11,268 nucleotides of DNA from Patescibacteria group bacterium (GTDB lineage: Bacteria; Patescibacteriota; SOKK01), in the NCBI GenBank assembly GCA_004374725.1, contig SOKK01000087.1, forward strand, positions 1-11,268. Direction: 5' to 3'. Below, one piece after another: positions 1,002 to 10,436 of the stretch (position 1 is the stretch's first letter; each line of letters begins with the position of its first letter). A model generated the notes under the pieces. It made no database searches. It worked only from the letters and a program-made list of their open reading frames with translations, and was not told where the DNA came from. The position numbers and the translations under genes are program-made.

Positions 1002-2687
1002 ATGGAAAATATTTTTCTTGACATCGGTGTACTTGTAATCCTTGCGGCCTTAGGAGCACTCTTGGCGACTTTCTTGCGTCAACCTTTAATCCCACTTTAC
1101 CTCTTAGTGGGAATTTTAATTGGCCCGGTTTTAGGATTGGTTACAAACCAAGAAGTAATTATTACTTTCTCTGAAATTGGAATTGCTTTGCTTTTGTTTG
1201 TGGTGGGATTGCGGATTGACCTTGGAAAATTAAAAAGCGTTGCTAAAATTGCAGTTGTTGGCGGAATAGTTAAGGTAGGTGTTTTAGCACTCTTGGGATT
1301 TCTTTTGGCAAACTTTTTAGATTTTGCGTATCCCGCTACAATCTATCTTGGACTTGCAGTAGCGTTTGGGAGCACAATGGTTGCTTTAAAAATTCTTTCC
1401 GACCGTCAGGAGTTAAACTCTTTACACGGCAGGATTGTGATTGGTTTTCTTTTGGTGGAAGATATCTTGGCAGTTCTTGCTTTGACCGTTCTTTCTACCC
1501 TTGGCAGCTTTGAAGTTACAGGTCTTCTTCTGGCACTGGTGAAAGGGATTGGCCTTCTTTTAGCCGTGGTTTTAGCAAGCCGTTTTGTCTTCCCTTGGCT
1601 CTTTCGCTATGCATCTAAATTTGAAGAGCTGATGTTTATTCTGGCACTGGGTTTCTGTTTCGGCTTTGCCTGGCTTTCCTATTCCCTAGGCCTCTCGATT
1701 GCAATTGGTGCTTTCTTTGTTGGAGTGGGGCTGGCGAACTTGCCGTATCGTCTTGCAATTGCTGGAAAAGTGCGAGTCTTGCGAGATTTCTTCGCTGTGA
1801 TTTTCTTTGTTACCTTGGGGATGCAGATTGCAATTTCTGATTTGGATTTGGTTTGGAAGGCCTTGGTTATCTTTACCCTCTTTGTGATTATTGTTAATCC
1901 ATTAACCACCGCTTTGATTACAAGTATTTTTGGCTACAAGAGGCGGACGACGTTTATGGCGGTGGTCTTTTTAATCCCCACTAGTGAGTTTGCTTTGATT
2001 ATCGTGACAGAGGGGATGCAGAGAGGGGATATAGGTAGTAATGTTTTTGCTTTGGTGGTGATGTTGGCAGTTCTAACAATTACCTATATGTCTTATTTGG
2101 TGAGGTTTGATTGGCAGATTTATAAAGTTGCGAAATGGCCGCTTAAGATTTTTGAGAGTTTCAGTCGCGAGCACATTGAAAGAGTTGAGATTAAAGATGG
2201 AAAGAAGAAAGGGAAACAGGTTGTTCTTTGTGGGGTAGATCGGCTAGGACATAAAATTTTAAAGGCGCTTTCAAGCATGCGAGAGAGTATTTTGGTGGTA
2301 GATCTTAATCCAGAACTGATTGAGAAAATGGCAAGAAAGAAGATCCCCGCGATTTATGGAGATATTAATGATCCAGAAATCTTTCATAAAACAGAGCCCA
2401 AAAATACAAAATTGATCATCTCTACTGTTCCTGATAAACATGATAATCTTTTACTTCTAGAACAAACAAAATCTTATCGGCGTTCAATGGTTGTTTGTGT
2501 AACAGCCTCGCAGGCTCGCGATGCTTTGGAGCTTTACAAGCACGGTGCTGATTACGTAATTGTTCCCAAACACCTTGGTGGCGAACATGTTGCTTTTCTT
2601 TTGAAAAAGTCTGGGAATCGATTTGGTAAATTTAAGCAAACAAAAAAGGAGCATCTTAGGGAACTCCGGGAAATAATGAGAAAATGA
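1002..2687 (+). CDS. CPA2 cation:proton antiporter with TrkA-N (RCK) domain
   Basis: This is a 561-residue inner-membrane antiporter of the KefB/KefC-like monovalent cation:proton antiporter-2 family, expected to exchange K+ or Na+ for H+ under control of a cytoplasmic nucleotide-binding domain. Residues 1 to about 375 are a string of hydrophobic segments. They carry the family signatures LLLFVVGLRIDL (about 62-73), a GSTMVALKIL segment (about 123-132) and LVEDILAV with its conserved acidic pair (about 150-157). Residues about 405-540 form a Rossmann-type TrkA-N domain beginning VVLCGVDRLG, with a later acidic VVDLNP that suits a dinucleotide ribose contact. The usual GxGxxG is GVDRLG here, so the middle Gly is replaced. 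Start: a good GGAGGT lies at 975-980, 21 nt from the ATG, which is too far. The protein begins exactly where relatives begin, so the ATG is kept. Its far end meets amrA convergently. Confidence 0.9.
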   Translation: MENIFLDIGVLVILAALGALLATFLRQPLIPLYLLVGILIGPVLGLVTNQEVIITFSEIGIALLLFVVGLRIDLGKLKSVAKIAVVGGIVKVGVLALLGFLLANFLDFAYPATIYLGLAVAFGSTMVALKILSDRQELNSLHGRIVIGFLLVEDILAVLALTVLSTLGSFEVTGLLLALVKGIGLLLAVVLASRFVFPWLFRYASKFEELMFILALGFCFGFAWLSYSLGLSIAIGAFFVGVGLANLPYRLAIAGKVRVLRDFFAVIFFVTLGMQIAISDLDLVWKALVIFTLFVIIVNPLTTALITSIFGYKRRTTFMAVVFLIPTSEFALIIVTEGMQRGDIGSNVFALVVMLAVLTITYMSYLVRFDWQIYKVAKWPLKIFESFSREHIERVEIKDGKKKGKQVVLCGVDRLGHKILKALSSMRESILVVDLNPELIEKMARKKIPAIYGDINDPEIFHKTEPKNTKLIISTVPDKHDNLLLLEQTKSYRRSMVVCVTASQARDALELYKHGADYVIVPKHLGGEHVAFLLKKSGNRFGKFKQTKKEHLRELREIMRK

Positions 2688-2737
2688 TTAATGTATAATG
2701 AATAATGTAAATAGCCCATTATTCATTAATCATTATT
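2684..2737. repeat. Heptad-periodic inverted repeat, copy A
   Basis: The left arm is 7-nt units ATGATTA, ATGTATA, ATGAATA, ATG (2684-2707). The right arm is CATTATT, CATTAAT, CATTATT (2717-2737). The inner 12 bp (2696-2707 with 2717-2728) pair perfectly around a 9-nt loop. The element fills the gap between two convergent genes and contains the antiporter TGA inside its first unit, and its last base is the end of the amrA stop codon. It could act as a bidirectional 3'-end structure, though it is AT-only and has no long T-run. It shares architecture but not sequence with 7941-8002 and 9982-10059. Confidence 0.75.
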
Positions 2738-3252
2738 TAACTGTGACGTTCAACGGTGAACCGTTCAATTGAGAGCGGTTCTTTTTGATAGTTAATTCCG
2801 GCTTTATCGCAGGTAATTCTTAGCTGGGTCTCTACGTTGTCTACGCCGTCTAGATCAGGGAGTAACAAGCCGCGATAACCGAACTGATTGGCAACAATGA
2901 TTCCGTACTTTTTGGGGTCAAGCTGGTTAACATCAGTAACAGGCTCAGGTTTACTTAAGACATCTACAGAGTAACTTAGATCTTTGAGCTCTTTTTTAGT
3001 AACAGGGTGAAAACGGAGATCTTTGGTTGCAGCGGAGATTGCATTTTGAATGATTTCTTCAGCAAGATTTTTCTGAGTCGGAACAAAAGTTCCGGTGCAA
3101 CCGCGAAGTTTTTTATCTTTCTTCAGGGAAACAAAAACCCCCGCCTTTTTTATCAGCATTTCCTTTGGTAAATCTTCTGGCGGTTTGATAGTCTTGTCTT
3201 CTTTGAGATAGGTTTCTACGGCTTGCTGGGCAAGTTTTGTATAGTTGTCCAT
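2737..3252 (-). CDS. amrA: AMMECR1-domain protein, AmmeMemoRadiSam protein A
   Basis: This 171-residue protein is nearly all one AMMECR1 domain, the partner always found with Memo-like and radical SAM proteins in the AmmeMemoRadiSam set; its biochemical role is not established. The hallmark LRGCTG motif is at residues 49-54, preceded by GVFVSLKKDKK. It is followed by the LRFHPVTKKEL segment and a C-terminal YRGLLLPDLDG stretch, all in family order. The frame is open to 3315, but the first 21 codons of that extension are translated from the repeat at 3262-3383, so the ATG at 3252-3250 is chosen. No Shine-Dalgarno precedes it, only an A/T-rich stretch, probably because the repeat inserted about 10 nt upstream. 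It is the last gene of the amrS-amrB-amrA unit. Confidence 0.9.
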   Translation of the reverse strand: MDNYTKLAQQAVETYLKEDKTIKPPEDLPKEMLIKKAGVFVSLKKDKKLRGCTGTFVPTQKNLAEEIIQNAISAATKDLRFHPVTKKELKDLSYSVDVLSKPEPVTDVNQLDPKKYGIIVANQFGYRGLLLPDLDGVDNVETQLRITCDKAGINYQKEPLSIERFTVERHS

Positions 3253-3261
3253 TTTTTTATT

Positions 3262-3383
3262 GTTATTGCGAGTCCTGCGAAGCGGGACGAAGCCTGCCTG
3301 CCGGCAGGTAGGCAATCCTGTCAGTTTTGGGTTGCCTATATCCTCACGGGATTGCTTCGTCGCTGCGCTCCTCGCAATGACAC
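3262..3383. repeat. Interspersed imperfect palindromic repeat, copy 2
   Basis: The ends are attgcgag (left) and ctcgcaatgaca-like (right), inverted relative to each other. Inner words ggcaatcctgtcag and cgggattgcttcgtcgc match the copy at 4196-4312 in the same order and orientation. It fills the amrB-amrA gap, supplies the last residues and stop codon of amrB, and ends about 10 nt before the amrA start. No transposase is present, so it would be a non-autonomous, MITE-like or REP-like element. Repeats with this kind of sequence are familiar from many uncultured bacterial genomes. Confidence 0.85.
3292..3313. repeat. GC-rich palindrome nested in repeat copy 2
   Basis: gcctgcctgcc (3292-3302) faces ggcaggtaggc (3303-3313), pairing over 11 bp with one G-T wobble. 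It is absent from copy 1 at 4196-4312, which suggests a secondary insertion. A closely related palindrome stands alone at 5820-5837. Confidence 0.75.
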
Positions 3384-4184
3384 TCTAAACTTACCGACTG
3401 CGTACCCAACCCCAAAGGGACCTTCATAGGTGATGAAATCTAGTTTGTAGTCAAAGTTGCTTAGGACTCCGAAGAGGATTACAATTGAGCGCAGGCCACA
3501 TTCTCCTGCTTCTTGAATCAGATTTTGGTCTAGTTTAAGAATTTCCTGGGGCTTGTTTTGTTTGATCAGTTCTACCAATTGCCGATCAAATTCCTTTCCT
3601 TTGGGGTTATAGCCGGCAGGAGCTTCAGGGGTTAAGCGATGCGAAAGATCACCACTTGCAACAAAGACAATTTTCTCTTTGCTCTCTTTGATGATTTTTC
3701 CTAAGCTCTTCCCAAACTCAAAATGTTTATCTAGATCTAACATTGAAAAAGTGAGGGGAACCAGTTTAAAAGAATTATATTTCTGGCTAAGATAGTAGAG
3801 CGGAACTAAAATTCCATGATCAAGATTGTTTTCTTCCAAGAGTTCGGGAGCAAGAGCAGAATTTATTTCGGTGAGAGGGAAGTTGGATTTTGCAATAATT
3901 TCTTTGGAGAGTTTTTGATCTTTTTCAAATTTTAGGTTGATATTGAAAGCTCCGAATTGAGCGAGGTTACCTTGGTAACTTTCAAAGTTATAGATCCCGA
4001 AGGAATTGGATAGAGTAACGCTATGAGGTGAAATGATAATCACAGTTTCTGGTTTGAGTTTCGCAACATCGTCTCCCAATTTTTTCATTGCTTCTACAGT
4101 TTTCGGAGTTTGTCTAAGATTATCCTGACCAATTTCAGGAATAATAATTGGAGGGTGAGGTGTAATGTAGGCGGAAGTGAGCAT
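3336..4184 (-). CDS. amrB: Memo-like protein, AmmeMemoRadiSam protein B
   Basis: This 282-residue protein belongs to the Memo family, related to class III extradiol dioxygenases. Family-typical metal or active-site candidates are visible: His10 in ITPHPP, His54 in ISPHS, His123 in LDHG, Asp179 and His182 in SGDLSH, and Cys229 in AGECG. The C-terminal family motif YEGPFGVGY is at about 253-261. An ATG five codons upstream (4199) is also in frame, but it lies at the edge of a repeat and relatives start at MLTSAYITPHPP, so 4184 is chosen. Neither start has a good ribosome binding site. Residues from about 268 (VSLRGAQRRSNPVRI) are translated from the repeat at 3262-3383. The natural protein should end near GKF, so the original stop has been lost and replaced by one inside the repeat. 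The core fold should be unaffected. Confidence 0.9.
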   Translation of the reverse strand: MLTSAYITPHPPIIIPEIGQDNLRQTPKTVEAMKKLGDDVAKLKPETVIIISPHSVTLSNSFGIYNFESYQGNLAQFGAFNINLKFEKDQKLSKEIIAKSNFPLTEINSALAPELLEENNLDHGILVPLYYLSQKYNSFKLVPLTFSMLDLDKHFEFGKSLGKIIKESKEKIVFVASGDLSHRLTPEAPAGYNPKGKEFDRQLVELIKQNKPQEILKLDQNLIQEAGECGLRSIVILFGVLSNFDYKLDFITYEGPFGVGYAVGKFRVSLRGAQRRSNPVRI

Positions 4185-4195
4185 TGTTCCAAGTG

Positions 4196-4312
4196 CCATT
4201 GCGAGCCCCGCGAAGCGGGGCGTGGCAATCCCGTCAGGATGTAGACTGTCTATATTTCAACGGGATTGCTTCGTCGCCTCCCGCAAAGCGGGAGGACTCC
4301 TCGCAATGACAT
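4196..4312. repeat. Interspersed imperfect palindromic repeat, copy 1
   Basis: It begins ccattgcgag and ends ctcgcaatgaca, with smaller GC hairpins inside each arm (ccccgc-gaa-gcgggg near 4206-4220 and cctcccgc-aaa-gcgggagg near 4277-4294). It shares the words ggcaatcc-gtcag, tatat and cgggattgcttcgtcgc with copy 2, in the same orientation. It occupies the whole gap between the amrS stop and the amrB start. The minus-strand end contains GCGAGGAG, a weak Shine-Dalgarno resemblance, but too far from amrB to serve it. Confidence 0.85.
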
Positions 4313-4318
4313 TATGAA

Positions 4319-5218
4319 TTAAACATTTCCTAAATAAACATGTTTCAAACCAGCTTTTTTACCAATCTCTTGGGCTTTTTTGAGGGTTTTTAGCGGACGC
4401 GGGGGGAGGTCATGAAGTTTTGCTTGGGGGACGAAGCGGGTGACGTGCCAGGGTATTTCGGGTCCGAGGTTTTTGACAATCCAATTGGCAATTTTTTTGA
4501 GATTTTCAGGACTGTCATTCATCGTCGGGACAATATTGGTGACAACTTCAACATGCATTTTCCATTTGTCTTTGGCTCTTTTGGTCACTTCCAGAATTCC
4601 TTTTACTTGAGGAATGTTAGCCATTTTCTGATAGAACTTGTCATCAAAACTTTTGATGTCGACGCGAAAAGCATCAAGATAGGGCCCGATTAAATCGAGA
4701 TGCTCTTTGGTTAAAAAGCCGTTTGTGACATAGACCGTATAATATTTTTTGAGGTGAGGATGTTCTTTGATTTCCTTCATCACGTCCAGGTTGAATTCTA
4801 ACCAGATCGCGGGCTCGTTATAGGTAAAGGCTACACCGGCGCTATCAGATTTTTCTAAAAGTTCAATGACCTTCTTGGGAGTGATTTTCTCGCTGGCCTT
4901 ACCTAGCATCTTAATTTCTTTGCCATCAAGATAGGTTAAGCTCCAATTTTGACAGAAAAGACAGCGAAAGTTGCAGCCGTAAGTGCCCAGAGATAACACT
5001 TGCGTTCCAGGATGAAAATGAAAGAGTGGCTTTTTCTCAATCGGATCAATATTTACCGCGGAAGCGATTCCATAGATCAGAGTGTATAGCTCTCCCTTCT
5101 GATTTTTCCGCGTACCACAAAACCCTGTTTTCCCTTCCGGAATGACGCATTTCCGCTGGCAAACATAGCATTGCACGGCGTTATTTTCTAGTTTTTTGTA
5201 GAGAAGTGCTTTTTTCAT
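4319..5218 (-). CDS. amrS: Radical SAM enzyme of the AmmeMemoRadiSam system
   Basis: A 299-residue cytosolic radical SAM protein related to pyruvate formate-lyase-activating enzymes. The [4Fe-4S] motif CxxxCxxC is Cys82, Cys86 and Cys89 in GCNFRCLFCQNW, preceded by SLGTYG. The N-terminus carries the Cys17, Cys20, Cys24, Cys34 set (CYVC, RKC, GFCG) typical of this subfamily and probably another metal site. AFTYNEPAIW (about 130-139), VTNGF and FRVDIKSF follow in the usual order, ending in HVTRFVP near 260-266. It should generate a 5'-deoxyadenosyl radical. The substrate of the AmmeMemoRadiSam trio is unknown; modification of AmrB or a small molecule are both conceivable. It is first in its operon, with no Shine-Dalgarno and a promoter almost touching the start (5228-5233). 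Confidence 0.92.
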   Translation of the reverse strand: MKKALLYKKLENNAVQCYVCQRKCVIPEGKTGFCGTRKNQKGELYTLIYGIASAVNIDPIEKKPLFHFHPGTQVLSLGTYGCNFRCLFCQNWSLTYLDGKEIKMLGKASEKITPKKVIELLEKSDSAGVAFTYNEPAIWLEFNLDVMKEIKEHPHLKKYYTVYVTNGFLTKEHLDLIGPYLDAFRVDIKSFDDKFYQKMANIPQVKGILEVTKRAKDKWKMHVEVVTNIVPTMNDSPENLKKIANWIVKNLGPEIPWHVTRFVPQAKLHDLPPRPLKTLKKAQEIGKKAGLKHVYLGNV

Positions 5219-5227
5219 CGCAGGTTT

Positions 5228-5233
5228 ATTATA
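5228..5233 (-). promoter_or_regulatory. Extended -10 promoter of amrS, leaderless start
   Basis: The minus strand reads TGtTATAAT, a perfect -10 with the extended TGn element. No good -35 lies 16-18 nt upstream. A start about 7 nt downstream would fall 2-4 nt from the amrS ATG at 5218, leaving essentially no leader, which fits the absence of a ribosome binding site. Confidence 0.55.
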
Positions 5234-5242
5234 ACATAGGGG

Positions 5243-5271
5243 TTGATTTTTCAGCTTGGGTTTGATATGCT
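5243..5271 (+). promoter_or_regulatory. Possible promoter for the small-protein unit
   Basis: TTGATT (5243-5248) and TATGCT (5266-5271) are 17 nt apart, each matching 4 of 6 consensus positions. It is divergent from and partly back-to-back with the amrS promoter. A start near 5278 would transcribe the genes at 5340 and 5494, ending at the terminator at 5729-5756. Confidence 0.4.
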
Positions 5272-5301
5272 ATTACCTTCTACTAAATAGACGACCTTAA
5301 A

Positions 5302-5322
5302 AATAGAAAGGGTGATTCTATT
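5302..5322 (+). repeat. Small hairpin in leader of the small-protein unit
   Basis: aatagaa (5302-5308) and ttctatt (5316-5322) pair perfectly over 7 bp around a 7-nt loop agggtga. The loop holds purines that could serve as a ribosome binding site for a TTG at 5321 that opens a competing 24-codon frame. Confidence 0.4.
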
Positions 5323-5339
5323 GAACGACAAGGGTAAGA

Positions 5340-5450
5340 ATGGTAGAGATAGAAAGAGAGATAAGGCCAACCATTCACTGCTCAAAGCGTTATGATCCTA
5401 GACGAGACCGCAATGGTCATAATGTGCGAAAGGTAGTCAAGAAGAAATAG
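5340..5450 (+). CDS. Possible 36-residue basic protein
   Basis: ATG to TAG gives a highly charged, Arg/Lys-rich peptide that begins MVEIEREIRPTIHCSKRYDP and ends VRKVVKKK. A purine run (aaggg, 5330-5334) is 5 nt before the ATG. I do not recognise a family. One Cys and two His are present but no CxxC pair, so a zinc ribbon is not supported. The frame lies between a plausible promoter and the better-supported gene at 5494. An overlapping 24-codon frame from TTG 5321 has a similar claim to the same bases. A short RNA leader rather than a protein remains possible. Confidence 0.35.
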   Translation: MVEIEREIRPTIHCSKRYDPRRDRNGHNVRKVVKKK

Positions 5451-5493
5451 CGTTTTCCCTCTTTGACTTTTCTCTGTAAAGGAGGAATTAGCG

Positions 5494-5715
5494 ATGAAGG
5501 GACCTCTGAAATGGCCGTCAATCATTTTCGCGGTGGCCTTACTGGCCTACGTTCTTTTTATGGTGGAGATACCTTTCCCTTGGAACGACGAGGGAGTTCT
5601 TGCTCTTCCTGGTGACCTCTCGTCGCAGCCGGGATATTTTGGTTTCCTCGCCTTCATTGCCTTTGGCGCCATCCTCACCTGGCTCTACCACTTTTTGACC
5701 AGGAACAAGAACTGA
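5494..5715 (+). CDS. Small two-helix membrane protein, 73 aa
   Basis: An ideal ribosome binding site (AAAGGAGGAA, core 5481-5486) is 7 nt from the ATG, and a strong terminator follows the stop, so this is very probably a real gene. Residues about 8-26 form one transmembrane segment and about 48-67 a second. They are joined by a loop rich in Pro, Trp and acidic residues (IPFPWNDEG) and end in a short basic tail (TRNKN). That layout suggests a hairpin with both ends on the cytoplasmic side. I recognise no family. Codon use favours C-ending codons (GCC, CTC, TAC, ATC) much more than the flanking genes, which prefer A/T endings, hinting at a different origin. Confidence 0.75.
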   Translation: MKGPLKWPSIIFAVALLAYVLFMVEIPFPWNDEGVLALPGDLSSQPGYFGFLAFIAFGAILTWLYHFLTRNKN

Positions 5716-5728
5716 CGCCTAGGATTTG

Positions 5729-5756
5729 GGGAGCTTACGAAAAGCTCCCTTTTTTA
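5729..5756 (+). terminator. Intrinsic terminator
   Basis: gggagctt (5729-5736) and aagctccc (5742-5749) pair perfectly over 8 bp with a 5-nt loop, followed by six T (5750-5755). It separates the small-protein unit from the rpsA promoter. Confidence 0.9.
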
Positions 5757-5784
5757 TTTGCCTCGTATCGGAATGGTGCAGAGT

Positions 5785-5813
5785 TTGCCTTTTTTCAATA
5801 ATAGACCTATAAT
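5785..5813 (+). promoter_or_regulatory. Promoter of the rpsA-infB-rbfA operon
   Basis: TTGCCT (5785-5790) and a perfect TATAAT (5808-5813) are exactly 17 nt apart. The predicted start near 5820 gives a leader of about 120 nt before rpsA and coincides with the palindrome at 5820-5837. Confidence 0.7.
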
Positions 5814-5819
5814 AAAAGT

Positions 5820-5837
5820 GCCTACCTGCCGGTAGGC
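5820..5837 (+). repeat. Palindrome at the predicted transcript 5' end
   Basis: gcctacc (5820-5826) and ggtaggc (5831-5837) form a perfect 7-bp stem with loop tgcc. It is closely related to the palindrome at 3292-3313. Located at the predicted +1, it would put a hairpin at the very 5' end of the operon mRNA, which could protect it from decay. Confidence 0.65.
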
Positions 5838-5940
5838 AAGCTTCCCGAAAATAGTTTTTTATAGTAGAATTGAGTGCAACCTATTATTAACCGGCGCTTT
5901 TCCTTGGCGCACAGACAAAAGAAAGGATTTTTTTATTACT

Positions 5941-7179
5941 ATGCCTAAGAAAACCGAAACCCGCCCACGCCAGGTTTCTGGCGGGCAGGCTAAAGCTCAA
6001 AACTCCAAAATGGCTGACCTGGTCGAAGACTATACCAAAGACATCCCCCTTATTAAAGAAAACGAAACAGTTAAAGGAAAAGTAGTTGAGATTCGCGACA
6101 ATCAAGTCCTTTTGGACATTGGAGGAATGACAACCGGTGTAATTTCTGGCCGGGAGCTTAATGATGGTCTTGGAACAACGGATGAATTAAAAGTGGGAGA
6201 TGAAATTACTGCTACTGTGATTGATCTTGAAGATGAGGATGGACAGATGGTACTTTCCTTGCGCCAGGCAGGGCGGGAAAAACTTTGGGAAACTCTCAAG
6301 GAGAGAATGGAAAAGAAAGAAATTTTTGCCTGTAGTGTTGCTGAAGCAAACAAAGGTGGTTTGATGGTTGAAGTTGGAGGAATCAAAGGTTTCTTACCTG
6401 TTTCTCAATTAATTCCTGAACACTACCCACGTGTTGAAGGTGGCAACAAGGAAGAAATTTTAAGTTTGCTTCAGCAGTTTGTTGATAAAAAGATGGATGT
6501 TGTGATTATTAATGTTGATCCTCAAGAGAGAAAATTAATTCTTTCTGAGAAGGAAGCAGTTAAAGACGAACAACAGAAAAAACTCAAGAAATTGAAAGAA
6601 GGCGATGCTGTTGAGGGGGAAGTAAGTGGAGTAGTAGATTTTGGCTTCTTTGTGCGTTTTGATGGTATGGAAGGATTAGTACATATTTCTGAGATTAGCT
6701 GGGATAAAGTGGAACATCCCTCGGACTATGTCAAAATTGGAGACAAGGTGAAGGTTTCAATCTTGGGTATTGAGGATGACCGGGTCTCTTTGAGTATGAA
6801 ACGTCTCACAAAGGATCCATGGGTTGAAGAGGCAAAAAAGTATAAAGTTGGTCAGAGAGTGAAGGGGAAAGTAACAAGAATTACTCCCTTTGGTGCCTTT
6901 GTAAAATTAGATGATAAAGTTGACGGTCTTGTTCATATTTCGGAGTTGTCTTCTAAGAAAGTAGATAACCCGGAGGAAATCTTAAGTGCTGGAAATGAGA
7001 GTGAATTTAAAATTATTTCTCTTGAACCAGAAGAGCATAGATTAGGATTAAGTTTGAAAGCTTTAGAAGAAAAGAGTGATAAAGGAGATGACGGGAAGAA
7101 AGATGAAAAAGATAGAGAAAAGGAAAAAGGTGAAAGTAAAAAGGCAAAAGAAGATGCCCAAAAAAGCAGTAAAAAATAG
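5941..7179 (+). CDS. rpsA: 30S ribosomal protein S1, four S1 domains
   Basis: This 412-residue protein carries four S1 OB-fold RNA-binding domains at about 40-112, 124-204, 220-290 and 305-376. The last two are the most canonical (DFGFFVRFDGMEGLVHISEIS and FGAFVKLDDKVDGLVHISELS). It ends in a charged tail of about 35 Lys/Asp/Glu residues. S1 brings mRNA to the 30S subunit; four domains rather than six is a shorter form seen in many Gram-positive and reduced genomes. A ribosome binding site AAAGGA (5922-5927) lies 13 nt before the ATG, somewhat long. Codons 9-15 (RPRQVSG) are encoded by the hairpin repeat at 5964-5986. A second Met at residue 24 could be the ancestral start but has no ribosome binding site. 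A homologous short S1-domain protein of other function is the alternative. Confidence 0.88.
   Translation: MPKKTETRPRQVSGGQAKAQNSKMADLVEDYTKDIPLIKENETVKGKVVEIRDNQVLLDIGGMTTGVISGRELNDGLGTTDELKVGDEITATVIDLEDEDGQMVLSLRQAGREKLWETLKERMEKKEIFACSVAEANKGGLMVEVGGIKGFLPVSQLIPEHYPRVEGGNKEEILSLLQQFVDKKMDVVIINVDPQERKLILSEKEAVKDEQQKKLKKLKEGDAVEGEVSGVVDFGFFVRFDGMEGLVHISEISWDKVEHPSDYVKIGDKVKVSILGIEDDRVSLSMKRLTKDPWVEEAKKYKVGQRVKGKVTRITPFGAFVKLDDKVDGLVHISELSSKKVDNPEEILSAGNESEFKIISLEPEEHRLGLSLKALEEKSDKGDDGKKDEKDREKEKGESKKAKEDAQKSSKK
5964..5986 (+). repeat. Palindromic repeat inside the rpsA coding region
   Basis: gcc-a-cgccag (5964-5973) pairs with ctggcgggc (5978-5986) around the loop gttt, a 9-bp stem with one bulged base. 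It is in frame and adds a few residues to the unstructured N-terminus of S1. The mRNA would carry this hairpin about 20 nt downstream of the start codon. Confidence 0.6.
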
Positions 7180-7948
7180 TGGTTCAGAATTAAAAGACTT
7201 TACAGTAGAGCTGGCAAAGAAAGCTGGTAAGATTTTGATGGATGATTTTGGGAAAGCTCACAAAGCTCAAGAGAAAGGGCGTTTTGGCTATGTCACTGAT
7301 ACTGATCTTAAAGCGGAGAAGCTGATTTTGGGAGAAATTAAGAAGAAGTATCCTGAACATGATTATCTCTCAGAGGAAGCGGGAGGTAACCCCAGGCATT
7401 CTCGCCTACGTTGGATTATTGATCCTTTAGATGGAACTAATAATCACTTCTTTGGTTTTCCTGCTTTTGCAGTTTCAATTGCTCTTGAGAAAGATCATCA
7501 AATTCAACTGGGGGTGATTTATCTTCCTTATTGCAATTGGATGTTTGTTGCTGAGAGAGGAAAGGGAGCATTTCTGAATGATAAACCGATTAAAGTCTCT
7601 GATGTCGAAATGGGAAGATTACCTTTTTTGTGTGATACCCGTCTGAAGTGGGCGAAGAAAAAGCGCCTGGGAGATCTTGATCGTTTGATAGATCATACTT
7701 TGAATGTTCGAATGTTTGGCTCCACTACTCAAAATCTTTGTTTCTTGGCGTCGGGAAGTGCGGGAGTATTTATCGAACGAGCAACAAAGCCTTGGGATAT
7801 TGCAGCAGGTTGTTTAATCATTGAAGAAGCTGGGGGGCTGGTAACTGATTTTGAAGGGAGGCCCTGGAGTGTTTATATGAAAAATCTTGTTGCTTCTAAT
7901 AGTAAAGTCCATAAAATTGTTTTAGACTTGCTAAGAAACGGAACGTAG
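7154..7948 (+). CDS. Inositol monophosphatase-family phosphatase
   Basis: A 264-residue Mg2+-dependent, Li+-sensitive-type sugar/nucleotide phosphatase (IMPase/CysQ/FBPase superfamily). The three metal-binding signatures are present: EEAGG at residues 74-78, WIIDPLDGTNN at 87-97 (Asp90, Asp93) and KPWDIAAG around Trp214-Asp215. The specific substrate (inositol phosphate, PAP or a sugar bisphosphate) cannot be told from sequence. The frame is open back to 7076 within the rpsA tail. ATG 7154 is chosen because the family's N-terminal helix (ELKDFTVELAKKAG) follows it directly and the earlier stretch is the Lys-rich out-of-frame reading of the S1 tail. This leaves a 26-nt overlap with rpsA and implies translational coupling. 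Confidence 0.85.
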   Translation: MPKKAVKNSGSELKDFTVELAKKAGKILMDDFGKAHKAQEKGRFGYVTDTDLKAEKLILGEIKKKYPEHDYLSEEAGGNPRHSRLRWIIDPLDGTNNHFFGFPAFAVSIALEKDHQIQLGVIYLPYCNWMFVAERGKGAFLNDKPIKVSDVEMGRLPFLCDTRLKWAKKKRLGDLDRLIDHTLNVRMFGSTTQNLCFLASGSAGVFIERATKPWDIAAGCLIIEEAGGLVTDFEGRPWSVYMKNLVASNSKVHKIVLDLLRNGT

Positions 7949-8002
7949 AACGTAGAACGTAGAAAAAATATTTCTGCATTCTGCGTTCTGAGTTCTGAAT
8001 TC
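7941..8002. repeat. Heptad-periodic inverted repeat, copy B
   Basis: The left arm is GAACGTA three times plus GAA (7941-7964). The right arm is TTCTGCA, TTCTGCG, TTCTGAG, TTCTGAA, TTC (7972-8002). Units CGTAGAA and CGCAGAA pair with a G-T wobble. The phosphatase stop TAG (7946-7948) lies inside the first copies, and the infB ATG starts 5 nt after the right arm. There is no T-run, and the operon evidently continues, so it is not an obvious terminator. Confidence 0.8.
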
Positions 8003-8007
8003 ACCCT

Positions 8008-9981
8008 ATGGCTATTAAACTCAAGGCTGCGGCCGAAAAATTTGGTTTTTCTGAGAGGGAGTTCCGTTCAAAATTACGTGGACTTGGTTTTAAGATTGAT
8101 CGAAAAGAAACCAAAATTGATGAAGGAATTGTCACGCAATTTGAGAGACGATTAAAGAATGAGGAAGAAAAAAAAGTTGAAAGCAAGGAATCAGGGGAAA
8201 TAAAGACGATTGAAATTCCAAAAGTAATTGCGGTAAAAGGCTTGGCGGAGAAAATGGAATTACCTGTTGCAAAAGTGATCAAGGAATTAATGAAGAATGG
8301 AATGATGGTCACAATTAATGAGAATATTGATTTTGAGACAGCTGCTATTATCAGTGAAGATCTTGGTTTTAAGGTTAAAGAAGAAAAAGCTGATCTCTTA
8401 AAAGCTGCGAAAGCTGGCCAGCACGTTGAAGTTGATGATCTTTTAAAAGAGGATGATAAGAAAAAGTTAAAAAGGCGCCCGCCAGTTGTAGTAATGATTG
8501 GGCATGTTGATCATGGCAAGACCACGCTCTTGGATGCAATTCGCAAAGCAAATGTTGTTAAAGGAGAAGCGGGGGGAATTACCCAACATATTAACACTTA
8601 TCAAGTTAAGAAAAAAGGCAAGTTGATCACTTTTATTGATACTCCGGGGCACGAGGCTTTTAAAAGGATGCGTGCTCAAGGAACAAAGATTACTGATATT
8701 GCAGTCTTAGTCGTGGCTGCGGATGAAGGTGTGAAGCCTCAGACAATTGAGGCAATTAAACATGCCAAGGATGTGAAAGTGCCAATCATTGTTGCAATCA
8801 CGAAAGTTGATAAACCAAATGCAAATGTTGATAAGGTAAAAAAAGAGTTGGGTGATTATGAAATTTTATCAGATGAGTGGGGAGGGAAAGATGTTTTTAT
8901 CCCTGTTTCCGGAATGACCAAAGAAGGACTTGATGATTTGTTAGATATGATTTTGTTAGTTTCAGATATGGAAGAGTTTAAGGCGAATCCCAAGCGCGAA
9001 GCAGTGGGAACAGTTGTCGAATCTAATCTTGATAAAAGCAGAGGCCCGATAGCGACAGTTTTAGTTCAGACAGGAACCTTGAGACAAGGTGATTACGTAG
9101 TTGCTGGAGAGGCGCGGGGGAAAGTGAGATTTATGGAGAATTATCAGAATAGGTCTCTTAAAGAGGCATTGCCTTCTATGCCGGTTTTAGTCGGGGGTTT
9201 TAAGGAGGTTCCGATTGTGGGTAGTGTTTTGCAGGCGGTTGAGTCAGATCAAAAAGCCCGCCAAATTGTGAGTAGTTTACACCATAAACAGATAGTGAAC
9301 AGACTTAAAGCTGTGAAGGATATTAGTTTAGATGAGTTAACTTCTCGGATCAAAGAGAGCCGCATCAAAAAACTGCGAATCGTATTAAAGGTAGACGTAA
9401 AAGGATCTTTAGAAGCAATTAAAGAATGTCTTAAGGCGATTGGAAATGATGAAGTAGCAATTAACTTAGTGCGTACAGGAATTGGTGCTATCAGTGAAAC
9501 AGACATTGATACTGCAGCTGCCGCAGATGAAATCGTGATCGGTTTTAATGTTAACGTTGATCCTATTGCGAAAAAATTAGCAAAAGATGGAAAGATTAAA
9601 ATTTTTCAATTTGAAGTTATCTATGAACTTATTGAAAAAGCTAAGGAGCTTTTAGGTGAATTACTCGAGCCAGAAATTATTGAAAATATTTTGGGAAGGA
9701 TTAAGATTTTGAAGGTTTTCAAAACTGGCAAGAAAGATATGATTATTGGGGGTAAGGTTACAAAAGGCAAGATTCAACCTAATCATTTAGTAAGAATTTT
9801 AAGAAAAGGGAAGAAAATTGCTGAAGGTGAAATTGATTCCCTTCAGCAGGAGAAAAAAACTGTCTCAGAATCTAAGAAAGGTTCAGAGTGTGGGGTGCAT
9901 TATAAAGGAGAGCCGGTGGTTAAAGAGGGAGATATTGTGGAAGTGTTTAGCCGAACGGAGAAGAAGAGAAGCCTTAAATAA
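8008..9981 (+). CDS. infB: Translation initiation factor IF-2
   Basis: A 657-residue GTPase that delivers fMet-tRNA to the 30S subunit and promotes subunit joining. A short N-terminal region (about 1-130) includes an IF2_N-like segment (VIAVKGLAEKMELPVAKVIKEL) but lacks the long charged linker of many bacterial IF-2s. G motifs: G1 GHVDHGKTT at 165-173, G2 GITQH at 190-194, G3 DTPGHE at 211-216, and G4 TKVD at 265-268. Thr replaces the usual Asn in the G4 NKxD motif. Domains II, III (C1) and C2 follow; the C-terminal fMet-tRNA-binding region includes VTKGKIQPNHLVRILRKGK. There is no Shine-Dalgarno before the ATG because the heptad repeat fills the upstream spacer. Translation may be coupled or depend on weak structure at the start. 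Confidence 0.95.
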   Translation: MAIKLKAAAEKFGFSEREFRSKLRGLGFKIDRKETKIDEGIVTQFERRLKNEEEKKVESKESGEIKTIEIPKVIAVKGLAEKMELPVAKVIKELMKNGMMVTINENIDFETAAIISEDLGFKVKEEKADLLKAAKAGQHVEVDDLLKEDDKKKLKRRPPVVVMIGHVDHGKTTLLDAIRKANVVKGEAGGITQHINTYQVKKKGKLITFIDTPGHEAFKRMRAQGTKITDIAVLVVAADEGVKPQTIEAIKHAKDVKVPIIVAITKVDKPNANVDKVKKELGDYEILSDEWGGKDVFIPVSGMTKEGLDDLLDMILLVSDMEEFKANPKREAVGTVVESNLDKSRGPIATVLVQTGTLRQGDYVVAGEARGKVRFMENYQNRSLKEALPSMPVLVGGFKEVPIVGSVLQAVESDQKARQIVSSLHHKQIVNRLKAVKDISLDELTSRIKESRIKKLRIVLKVDVKGSLEAIKECLKAIGNDEVAINLVRTGIGAISETDIDTAAAADEIVIGFNVNVDPIAKKLAKDGKIKIFQFEVIYELIEKAKELLGELLEPEIIENILGRIKILKVFKTGKKDMIIGGKVTKGKIQPNHLVRILRKGKKIAEGEIDSLQQEKKTVSESKKGSECGVHYKGEPVVKEGDIVEVFSRTEKKRSLK

Positions 9982-10059
9982 ATGGAGTATGCGGGATGGG
10001 GTATGAGGAATGTTAATTTCACATGCCCTATTCCTCATATTGCATACCTCATATTATAT
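9982..10059. repeat. Heptad-periodic inverted repeat, copy C
   Basis: The left arm is ATGGAGT, ATGCGGG, ATGGGGT, ATGAGGA, ATGTTAA (9982-10016). The right arm, read as its complement, is ATGAGGT, ATGCAAT, ATGAGGA, ATAGGGC (10052-10025). ATGAGGA (10003-10009) pairs perfectly with TCCTCAT (10032-10038), and neighbouring units pair with wobbles and mismatches. The element begins directly after the infB TAA and ends 2 nt before the rbfA ATG. Confidence 0.75.
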
Positions 10060-10061
10060 TT

Positions 10062-10436
10062 ATGTCTTTACGTAGAATTCTCAAAGTCAACAAATTAATT
10101 AAGCAAGAAGTCGGCAAAATCTTGCAGGATGAAATTGATGATCCCAGGTTTGGATTTGTGACGATTATAAAAGTAGATACTTCTCCTAATTTGGAACATG
10201 CTAAAGTTTTTCTTAGCTTTATTGGTGGAGAGGAAAAGGAGAGGGAGATTAAAGACATTATTTTAGAACATAGACCAGAGATTCAAAGACGCCTAAATCG
10301 TACTTTGGAGATGAAAAATGTCCCACTTTTAGATTTTGGTTTTGATTATTCTGTACGCCATGCTGATCACATTGAGCGTTTAATTAAACAAGTTAAGGAT
10401 GAAAAAAATCCCACCCGAAAAATTAAATCAAATTAA
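10062..10436 (+). CDS. rbfA: Ribosome-binding factor A
   Basis: A 124-residue KH-type protein that binds the 30S subunit and helps mature the 5' region of 16S rRNA. Family features in order: the N-terminal helix KVNKLIKQEVGKIL, then DEIDDPRFGFVTIIKVDTSPNLEHAKVFLSF, and the C-terminal RTLEMKNVPLLDFGFD-like strand and RHADHIERLI helix. The open frame reaches back to 10023, but the extension is the repeat. Start ATG 10062 matches the family's beginning. No clear ribosome binding site precedes it. Directly downstream of infB, it is in its classical position. Confidence 0.93.
   Translation: MSLRRILKVNKLIKQEVGKILQDEIDDPRFGFVTIIKVDTSPNLEHAKVFLSFIGGEEKEREIKDIILEHRPEIQRRLNRTLEMKNVPLLDFGFDYSVRHADHIERLIKQVKDEKNPTRKIKSN

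Follow-up and report, generated by a model that had tools for sequence, protein, structure and literature searches.

Inverted arrays of 7-nt units at gene borders of a Patescibacteria genome resemble the short tandem repeats of cyanobacteria

The short tandemly repeated repetitive (STRR) sequences of filamentous cyanobacteria comprise several unit families. Their units are usually 7 bp long, and they have been described as hairpins in the hupS-hupL spacer and close to a 3' end, where they were suggested to serve transcript stability and the coupling of translation (PMC2670836); three heptanucleotides are mentioned for Calothrix in PMC4692102. The latter also describes the GGGAATC (GGGANTN) repeats of Xanthomonas, with 186 and 183 arrays per genome and inverted pairs in 70 and 75 cases, which lie mostly between co-directional genes near the end of the upstream gene, are rare in divergent spacers and are there said to have an unknown function. 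Marine Beggiatoaceae have intergenic arrays of the heptamer TAACTGA that at times overlap a stop codon; these are direct repeats (169 sets, one indirect) of a single unit, mostly just 5' of starts (PMC4679880). REPINs and repetitive extragenic palindromic (REP) elements are dispersed intergenic inverted-repeat hairpins (PMC3116915). Heptanucleotides have been reported to outnumber other long simple repeats in the majority of bacterial genomes, and the contact length of the polymerase has been proposed to explain the number seven (Mrazek 2007, as cited in PMC4679880 and PMC4692102). Here we describe three heptad hairpins in an 11,268-nt contig of a Patescibacteria group bacterium (SOKK01000087.1; the window), and their relatives in the same genome and beyond. 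The elements have a 7-nt period, an inverted arrangement, dispersed copies and lineage-specific units, and they occupy tight stop-start gaps and the flanks of tRNA genes.

The preliminary description of the window had placed inverted tandem arms of a 7-nt unit in three spacers. Coordinates and design were both correct (Table 1), with lag 7 giving the highest whole-element autocorrelation among lags 3 to 12 in each case (0.67, 0.73 and 0.54 for elements 1, 2 and 3). Within the arms, lag-7 identity is 0.83 and 0.92 in element 1, and 1.00 (left) and 0.88 (right) in element 2, whose right arm in reverse reads GAANNCA against GAACGTA on the left; in element 3 it is 0.63 and 0.53, making this the weakest of the three, with diverged units. 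RNA folding against 200 dinucleotide shuffles gave z values of -4.74, -8.95 and -5.19, respectively. Element 2 spans the stop codon at 7946-7948 and element 3 follows the infB stop immediately, and both nearly abut the next gene, in line with what had been proposed for all three. Element 1 does cover a stop, the TGA at 2685-2687 of the antiporter gene, and ends 1-2 nt short of the AMMECR1 stop, but it connects two gene ends of a convergent pair rather than an end and a start. The units of the three elements are indeed unrelated to one another, but each of them is found again elsewhere in the genome.

The window is contig C50 of a 108-contig, 488-kb genome (G000) with a completeness of 78%, in which some contigs read as N. 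Our main sample consisted of 41 of the 108 contigs (185.9 kb, of which 14.7 kb were masked as N, with 7 contigs reading as N and 171.1 kb readable), and contains the window and four contigs selected for matching element 2 (C12, C29, C70, C99). Using an ungapped stem detector with a score threshold of at least 11 and an arm periodicity cut-off of at least 0.6, we found 27 stems, 22 of them with periodic arms, and the best lag was 7 in all 22. Elements 2 and 3 have bulges or mismatches and fall outside these 22; element 3 scored 10 in a comparison of infB loci. When the window and the four selected contigs were omitted, a recount gave lag 7 in 17 of 17 periodic stems. Ten first-order Markov resamplings of the 41 contigs yielded 0-4 stems each and none at lag 7, so the genome-wide enrichment over random controls that the preliminary description led one to expect is strong. 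When no hairpin was required, lag 7 accounted for 24 tandem arrays, compared with 0-2 for every other lag between 4 and 12, and spacer autocorrelation has maxima at lags 7, 14 and 21 (0.336, 0.313 and 0.301, with a mean of 0.274). A second sample of 20 further contigs, selected in part for AATG or AAGT matches, held 21 stems, of which 11 were periodic at lag 7; the other two periodic stems had lag 12 and arms of 14-15 nt. The same scan of 50 kb of E. coli found none. Among comparison genomes, none of which is nearer to the window genome than phylum level, 38 others of the phylum (740 kb) held 15 arrays of lag 7 compared with 0-4 for the remaining lags; the figures for 28 named relatives were 15 and 0-3. 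Lag 7 is less dominant among the periodic stems of these genomes (4 of 7 in the 38 genomes and 8 of 23 in the named relatives), and the window genome is therefore exceptionally rich in lag-7 elements. Coincidence is ruled out by the stem scan, the array counts and the comparison genomes.

Units in this genome fall into the families AATGANT, AGGTNAN, AAGTNAN and AGAANNC, plus rarer ones. Pattern matches number 45 for AGGTNAN and 29 for AAGTNAN, and the AATG family occurs at 21 loci. An 81-nt query had 39 matches at 21 genome loci including its own (our count), with the best copies 90-92% identical over about 60 nt. We aligned elements together with their flanks, and 41 of the 45 best pairs, chosen by score ahead of the test, scored above the maximum of 200 heptad-permuted versions (our count); examples are scores of 52, 47.5, 42 and 39.5 against permuted maxima of 38.5, 31.5, 23 and 22.5. 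The best pairs align over 50-90 nt, L101:2225 and L037:2323 have their loop in common as well, and two AATG-family loci, on C15 and C93, are similar in their flanks. For each of elements 1, 2 and 3, a relative elsewhere in the genome scores above every one of 500 permutations; that of element 3 matches over a single 37-nt arm. Because unit order is kept beyond the heptad-permuted controls, copying does take place within the genome, and family members are copies of one another.

Between genomes, the unit families are lineage-specific. AGGTNAN matches occur in 15 of 378 other genomes at 1-3 each, compared with 45 here, and weak partial matches to a relative of element 2 were seen in at least 6 of the 378, with no more than two candidates scored per genome. 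The reversed AGGTNAN pattern, used as a control, has no match here; it is itself a heptad (ATTGGAW or AGTGGAW) that is frequent elsewhere, for example with 32 matches in G275. The clearest comparison is the junction 3' of infB, of which we collected 59 loci. In 25 of them the next called open reading frame (ORF), not always rbfA, starts less than 25 nt past the infB stop or overlaps it (our count). The window and L014, L029, L035, L071, L077 and L032 have heptad arrays of unrelated units past infB, the last locus being labelled Chloroflexi and carrying ATGGTNA; L018, L019 and L034 are partial cases, judged by eye and from the lag-7 score. Inspection by eye of this junction in another 14 genomes, which come mostly from families rich in a different heptad, showed no clear element, with L225 a possible case. 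Directly past the infB stop of L066 (G038) lies a tandem array that by eye has period 8 (GGGTTAAC-like), and period 7 is thus not universal. Compared between species at this one locus, period and position are kept while units change, and in many relatives the junction is tight.

A wider survey, which missed two of the infB cases owing to ORF calls, covered 13 orthologous co-directional junctions with at least four named loci each. Seven carry a heptad element in some species under permissive criteria (an array score of 10, or a stem), so that AT-rich arrays count. At five of these seven, gaps of less than 25 nt occur in other species; at two there are none such. Viral contigs hold 119 stretches with four AGGTNAN units, of which 27 lie inside an ORF and 10, at 8 distinct loci (L283/L374, L303, L310, L311, L323/L375, L336, L341 and L388, some of them GC-rich), are accompanied by an inverted partner no more than 120 nt away. 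The L323/L375 array lies between a stop and the next ORF start and that of L283/L374 just 5' of an ORF start. At a phage junction before a Mu-F-like head gene (PF04233), stop and start touch or overlap in L455 and L463, and heptad arrays are present in L451 and L452, where the upstream protein ends at the same place and the stop codon falls within the first unit (our reading). Other relatives have different spacers or different upstream genes, and two viral genes have identical copies as their sole relatives. Since unrelated units occur at the same junction across lineages, a recurrent process is favoured over the descent of one element; copying of one element across lineages was rejected for this reason and because the unit families are lineage-specific. 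The proposal that a generating process rather than copying is at work is therefore supported between lineages but not within the genome, where families are copied.

The elements sit in gaps between genes. Co-directional genes flank 18 of the 24 in the first sample, divergent genes 2 and convergent genes 1 (element 1); the remaining 3 are at contig edges. For the junction gaps, genes were called as longest ORFs and starts inside an element were shifted to the next in-frame start; one element had the wrong upstream gene assigned (residual 766), and one gap contained tRNA genes (residual 236). At 12 of 16 co-directional junctions, the element leaves only 2-23 nt of the stop-start gap, while junctions without an element have a median gap of 24 nt (n=98). 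Elements are close to stop codons, but a preference for stops as such is hard to tell apart from the filling of whole spacers seen at these 12 junctions. A Shine-Dalgarno-like word precedes the next start at 1 of 16 element junctions and 16 of 98 others, and such words are rare genome-wide. One array, at L092:925-956, lies within an Fpg/MutM-like gene, a rare coding case. The AAGTNAN family is found beside tRNA genes. In the first sample, 7 of 9 AAGTNAN clusters have a tRNA gene within 60 nt, as does 1 of 21 from the other families; the second sample, whose two AAGT contigs were chosen for AAGT matches, gave 1 of 2 and 0 of 11. The pooled figures are 8 of 11 and 1 of 32 (Fisher p ~1e-5, with same-contig clusters not independent), and all eight contigs listed for the AAGTNAN pattern were among those examined. 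Conversely, a heptad cluster lies no further than 60 nt from 9 of the 12 tRNA genes found in the 61 contigs.

We favour, at a probability of about 0.6, the reading that the three elements are members of three dispersed heptad-hairpin families of an STRR-like class, grown by 7-nt slippage, copied, and tolerated at gene borders. Arrays would grow and shrink through 7-nt replication slippage, and the inverted arm may be formed and renewed through foldback (template-switch) copying. Whole elements could spread by templated copying between junctions with short words in common, or by a putative trans-acting enzyme. The survivors would be elements in gaps between genes, where the RNA hairpin would fold out and keep the stop and the next start codon near each other, leaving operon translation little disturbed. 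A benefit for transcript stability, a cistron boundary or translational coupling would be secondary and hypothetical. Pairing between the arms bears on this. Constant unit positions pair in 409 of 427 cases and variable positions in 68 of 121, and mismatches on the transcript strand are G-U in 7 cases and A-C in 18, which is no G-U excess. The partial pairing at variable positions and the lack of G-U bias favour slippage with templated copying, and two inverted arrays of one unit, drifting and slipping separately, suit the data better than a strictly maintained RNA helix.

Several observations weigh against this reading. Pairing in register at variable positions exceeds expectation (68 against 44.6, reached in 0 of 2000 permutations, with the register chosen by the detector), and this excess, a weak positive signal, could mean selection on the hairpin; when the register was re-optimised, pairing summed over 19 elements was 358 against 335, and no element was individually clear. 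By our reading, 7 of the 24 arrays have no inverted partner, and the hairpin is therefore not obligatory. The tie of the AAGT family to tRNA genes is more specific than passive tolerance would lead one to expect. Four of the 45 best pairs do not exceed their permuted versions, and the match of element 3 to L054 fails the permutation test (11 of 500 reach its score). In the named relatives, periodic stems are not dominated by lag 7 (8 of 23, with 15 at other lags), though arrays are. The comparisons spanned no close relative of the window genome, and gain or loss within a species was not seen. Neither an enzyme nor a donor site for the elements was found, and slippage and template switching are steps that we infer.

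The strongest alternative, which we still consider doubtful, is that these are selected RNA elements whose hairpins protect mRNA 3' ends, separate transcripts or couple translation, the heptads being a mere mode of building. It would account for the strong folding (z from -4.74 to -8.95), the few elements in divergent spacers (2 of 24), the stop and start carried at the foot of the stem, the tRNA flanks of the AAGT family and the in-register pairing beyond composition, with its register set by the detector; like functions have also been proposed for the STRRs. Yet G-U pairs are not in excess of A-C mismatches (7 against 18), single-orientation arrays exist, orthologous junctions in relatives manage without any element, and orientation is not clearly skewed because 51 of the 73 spacers with a length of 60 nt or more lie between co-directional genes in any case. 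Mismatch statistics were accordingly rejected as proof of RNA selection, given the absent G-U excess and the small re-optimised pairing excess. Nor did a terminator scan of the window, which found 13 sites where 10.3 were expected, flag any of the three elements, and simple intrinsic terminators with a GC-rich stem and T run were set aside on that basis. A terminator-like stem with a T run lies just beyond element 1 (2758-2781, + strand) and is a better candidate for the antiporter terminator. Rfam covariance models gave no match in the window at the gathering score, so a single conserved known RNA family was rejected as well. The weak pairing signal and the tRNA-linked family leave room for a function.

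A bolder and likewise doubtful proposal is a widespread activity working in a fixed register of 7 nt, encoded by the host or carried by phages, that would construct inverted heptad arrays at the ends of genes with a local 7-mer as seed, the arrays then being copied to further junctions. If true, one such activity would be behind the elements in Patescibacteria, the Chloroflexi-labelled genome and viral contigs, and the STRRs and Xanthomonas repeats of the literature. Spread of the elements as miniature mobile DNA under a transposase acting in trans, as with REPINs and RAYT tyrosine transposases, would explain inverted-repeat hairpins that are dispersed in families and present in viral contigs. 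We regard it as improbable, as array ends are variable, no target duplications were seen by eye in alignments of the AATG family, and Y1_Tnp (PF01797), the only transposase family searched, had no match in G000 while it was found in 6 of 10 genomes examined. RAYT-driven REPINs were rejected on this ground, though in a genome 78% complete and with some N contigs the enzyme could be missed. Least probable of all is that the arrays serve as binding sites of a protein that reads 7-nt units in DNA or RNA. The regular fixed and free unit positions would suit such a protein (A at position 6 in 36 of 36 AGGTNAN and 44 of 48 AAGTNAN units counted), and the Xanthomonas units also conserve positions 1-4 and 6, but many proteins would be needed, as this genome alone has at least five unit families that are unrelated, and other lineages have other units.

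The preliminary description knew of no named class for such elements. This has to be corrected, as the 7-bp STRRs, reported as hairpins between operon genes, match them, as do the inverted pairs of Xanthomonas GGGAATC. Like STRRs, the present elements are heptanucleotide tandem arrays (24 lag-7 arrays against 0-2 at others) dispersed over many intergenic sites of one genome, and the hairpins predicted here parallel those reported for some STRRs between operon genes. Judged by descriptions of the cyanobacterial side, they differ in that inverted pairing is common, whole stop-start gaps are filled and one family is tied to tRNA genes. The STRR name belongs to filamentous cyanobacteria and is used here by analogy, since the host is not cyanobacterial. 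Most of the 29 loci whose infB is 40-48% identical carry labels of Moran- or Gracilibacteria or of further Patescibacteria, and none is cyanobacterial. Table 3 of PMC2408588 lists the Nostoc sequence ttgtcagttgtcagttgtca as forming no hairpin; its unit is also that of an element on C11 (L047:2772). That locus and L433:1267 carry TTGTCAGTTGTCA, the unit of a sequence with 44 occurrences reported for Nostoc PCC 7120 (same table). The Xanthomonas repeats resemble ours in heptad arrays, inverted pairs and co-directional placement near the end of the upstream gene, but have one G-rich unit, studied as a G-quadruplex, whereas here many units coexist and the main ones lack G-runs of three. The Beggiatoaceae arrays share intergenic heptamers that at times overlap stops, but are direct, single-unit and start-proximal. 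REPINs share the dispersed inverted-repeat hairpins between genes, but consist of REP doublets with RAYT transposases, whereas the arms here are heptad arrays. Nearest in kind are STRRs and the Xanthomonas repeats, with the present case richer and in another phylum. What is new here is the presence of several unit families per genome, the near-exact filling of stop-start gaps and the AAGTNAN family beside tRNA genes; heptad hairpins in Patescibacteria were not reported in our literature searches, whose reach mostly excluded subscription papers.

The genes that flank the elements are given in Table 1. We identified infB by the adjoining downstream RBFA gene and by the relatives of its protein. 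By Pfam, the window also contains LigB/Memo, radical SAM, S1 and DHH genes. The LigB/Memo gene is flanked by a second, GC-rich dispersed repeat with palindromes at 3270-3390 and 4187-4318 (GCAATCCCGTCAGGA ... ACGGGATTGC), and similar stems occur at L093:2329, L432:1214, L438:2486 and L440:2189. Positions 1-960 form a long stretch without a convincing gene that is structured (stem 336-396); it gave no Rfam match at the gathering score and no tRNA or transfer-messenger RNA, with two sub-threshold matches to microRNA families only. Elsewhere, L429:8168-8232 carries TGTTCCACGTGGAACA in two inverted copies, which we take to be a ParB parS site, possibly near the origin.

Table 1 Elements and flanking genes of the window
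Feature	Coordinates	Strand	Remarks
Na/H exchanger with TrkA_N domain (antiporter)	1002..2687	+	Pfam; stop inside element 1
Element 1, heptad hairpin, unit TAATGAN (AATG family)	2683..2735	.	Between convergent Na/H antiporter and AMMECR1 genes; arms 2683-2707 and 2717-2735
AMMECR1 domain gene	2737..3252	-	Pfam; called ORF extends to 3315, likelier start is ATG 3250-3252 on the reverse strand (our reading)
Inositol monophosphatase-family ORF (IMPase-like), as called	7076..7948	+	Pfam; stop inside element 2
Element 2 left arm, GAACGTA x3.4	7941..7964	+	IMPase-like gene stop (TAG 7946-7948) lies within
Element 2 right arm, inverted AGAANNC units	7972..8002	+	Ends 5 nt upstream of infB ATG; sister copies on C12, C29, C70
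infB (translation initiation factor IF-2)	8008..9981	+	Between elements 2 and 3 (our reading)
Element 3 left arm, ATGNGGN units	9982..10015	+	Immediately 3' of infB stop TAA
Element 3 right arm, inverted	10023..10059	+	2 nt before likely rbfA ATG at 10062; one-arm relative on C2 (L038)
rbfA (RBFA domain)	10062..10436	+	Pfam; called ORF begins at 10023 within element 3, 10062 is the likely start (our reading)

Why bacterial repeats prefer a length of seven is an old question, and the elements described here offer a way to address it. An orthologous junction can be empty in one species while others have it filled with heptad hairpins of unrelated units, and such junctions amount to a natural experiment on the birth, copying and tolerance of these repeats. 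Should the hairpins prove to influence translation or RNA ends, they would rank among the main forces that shape operons in this group of tiny genomes.

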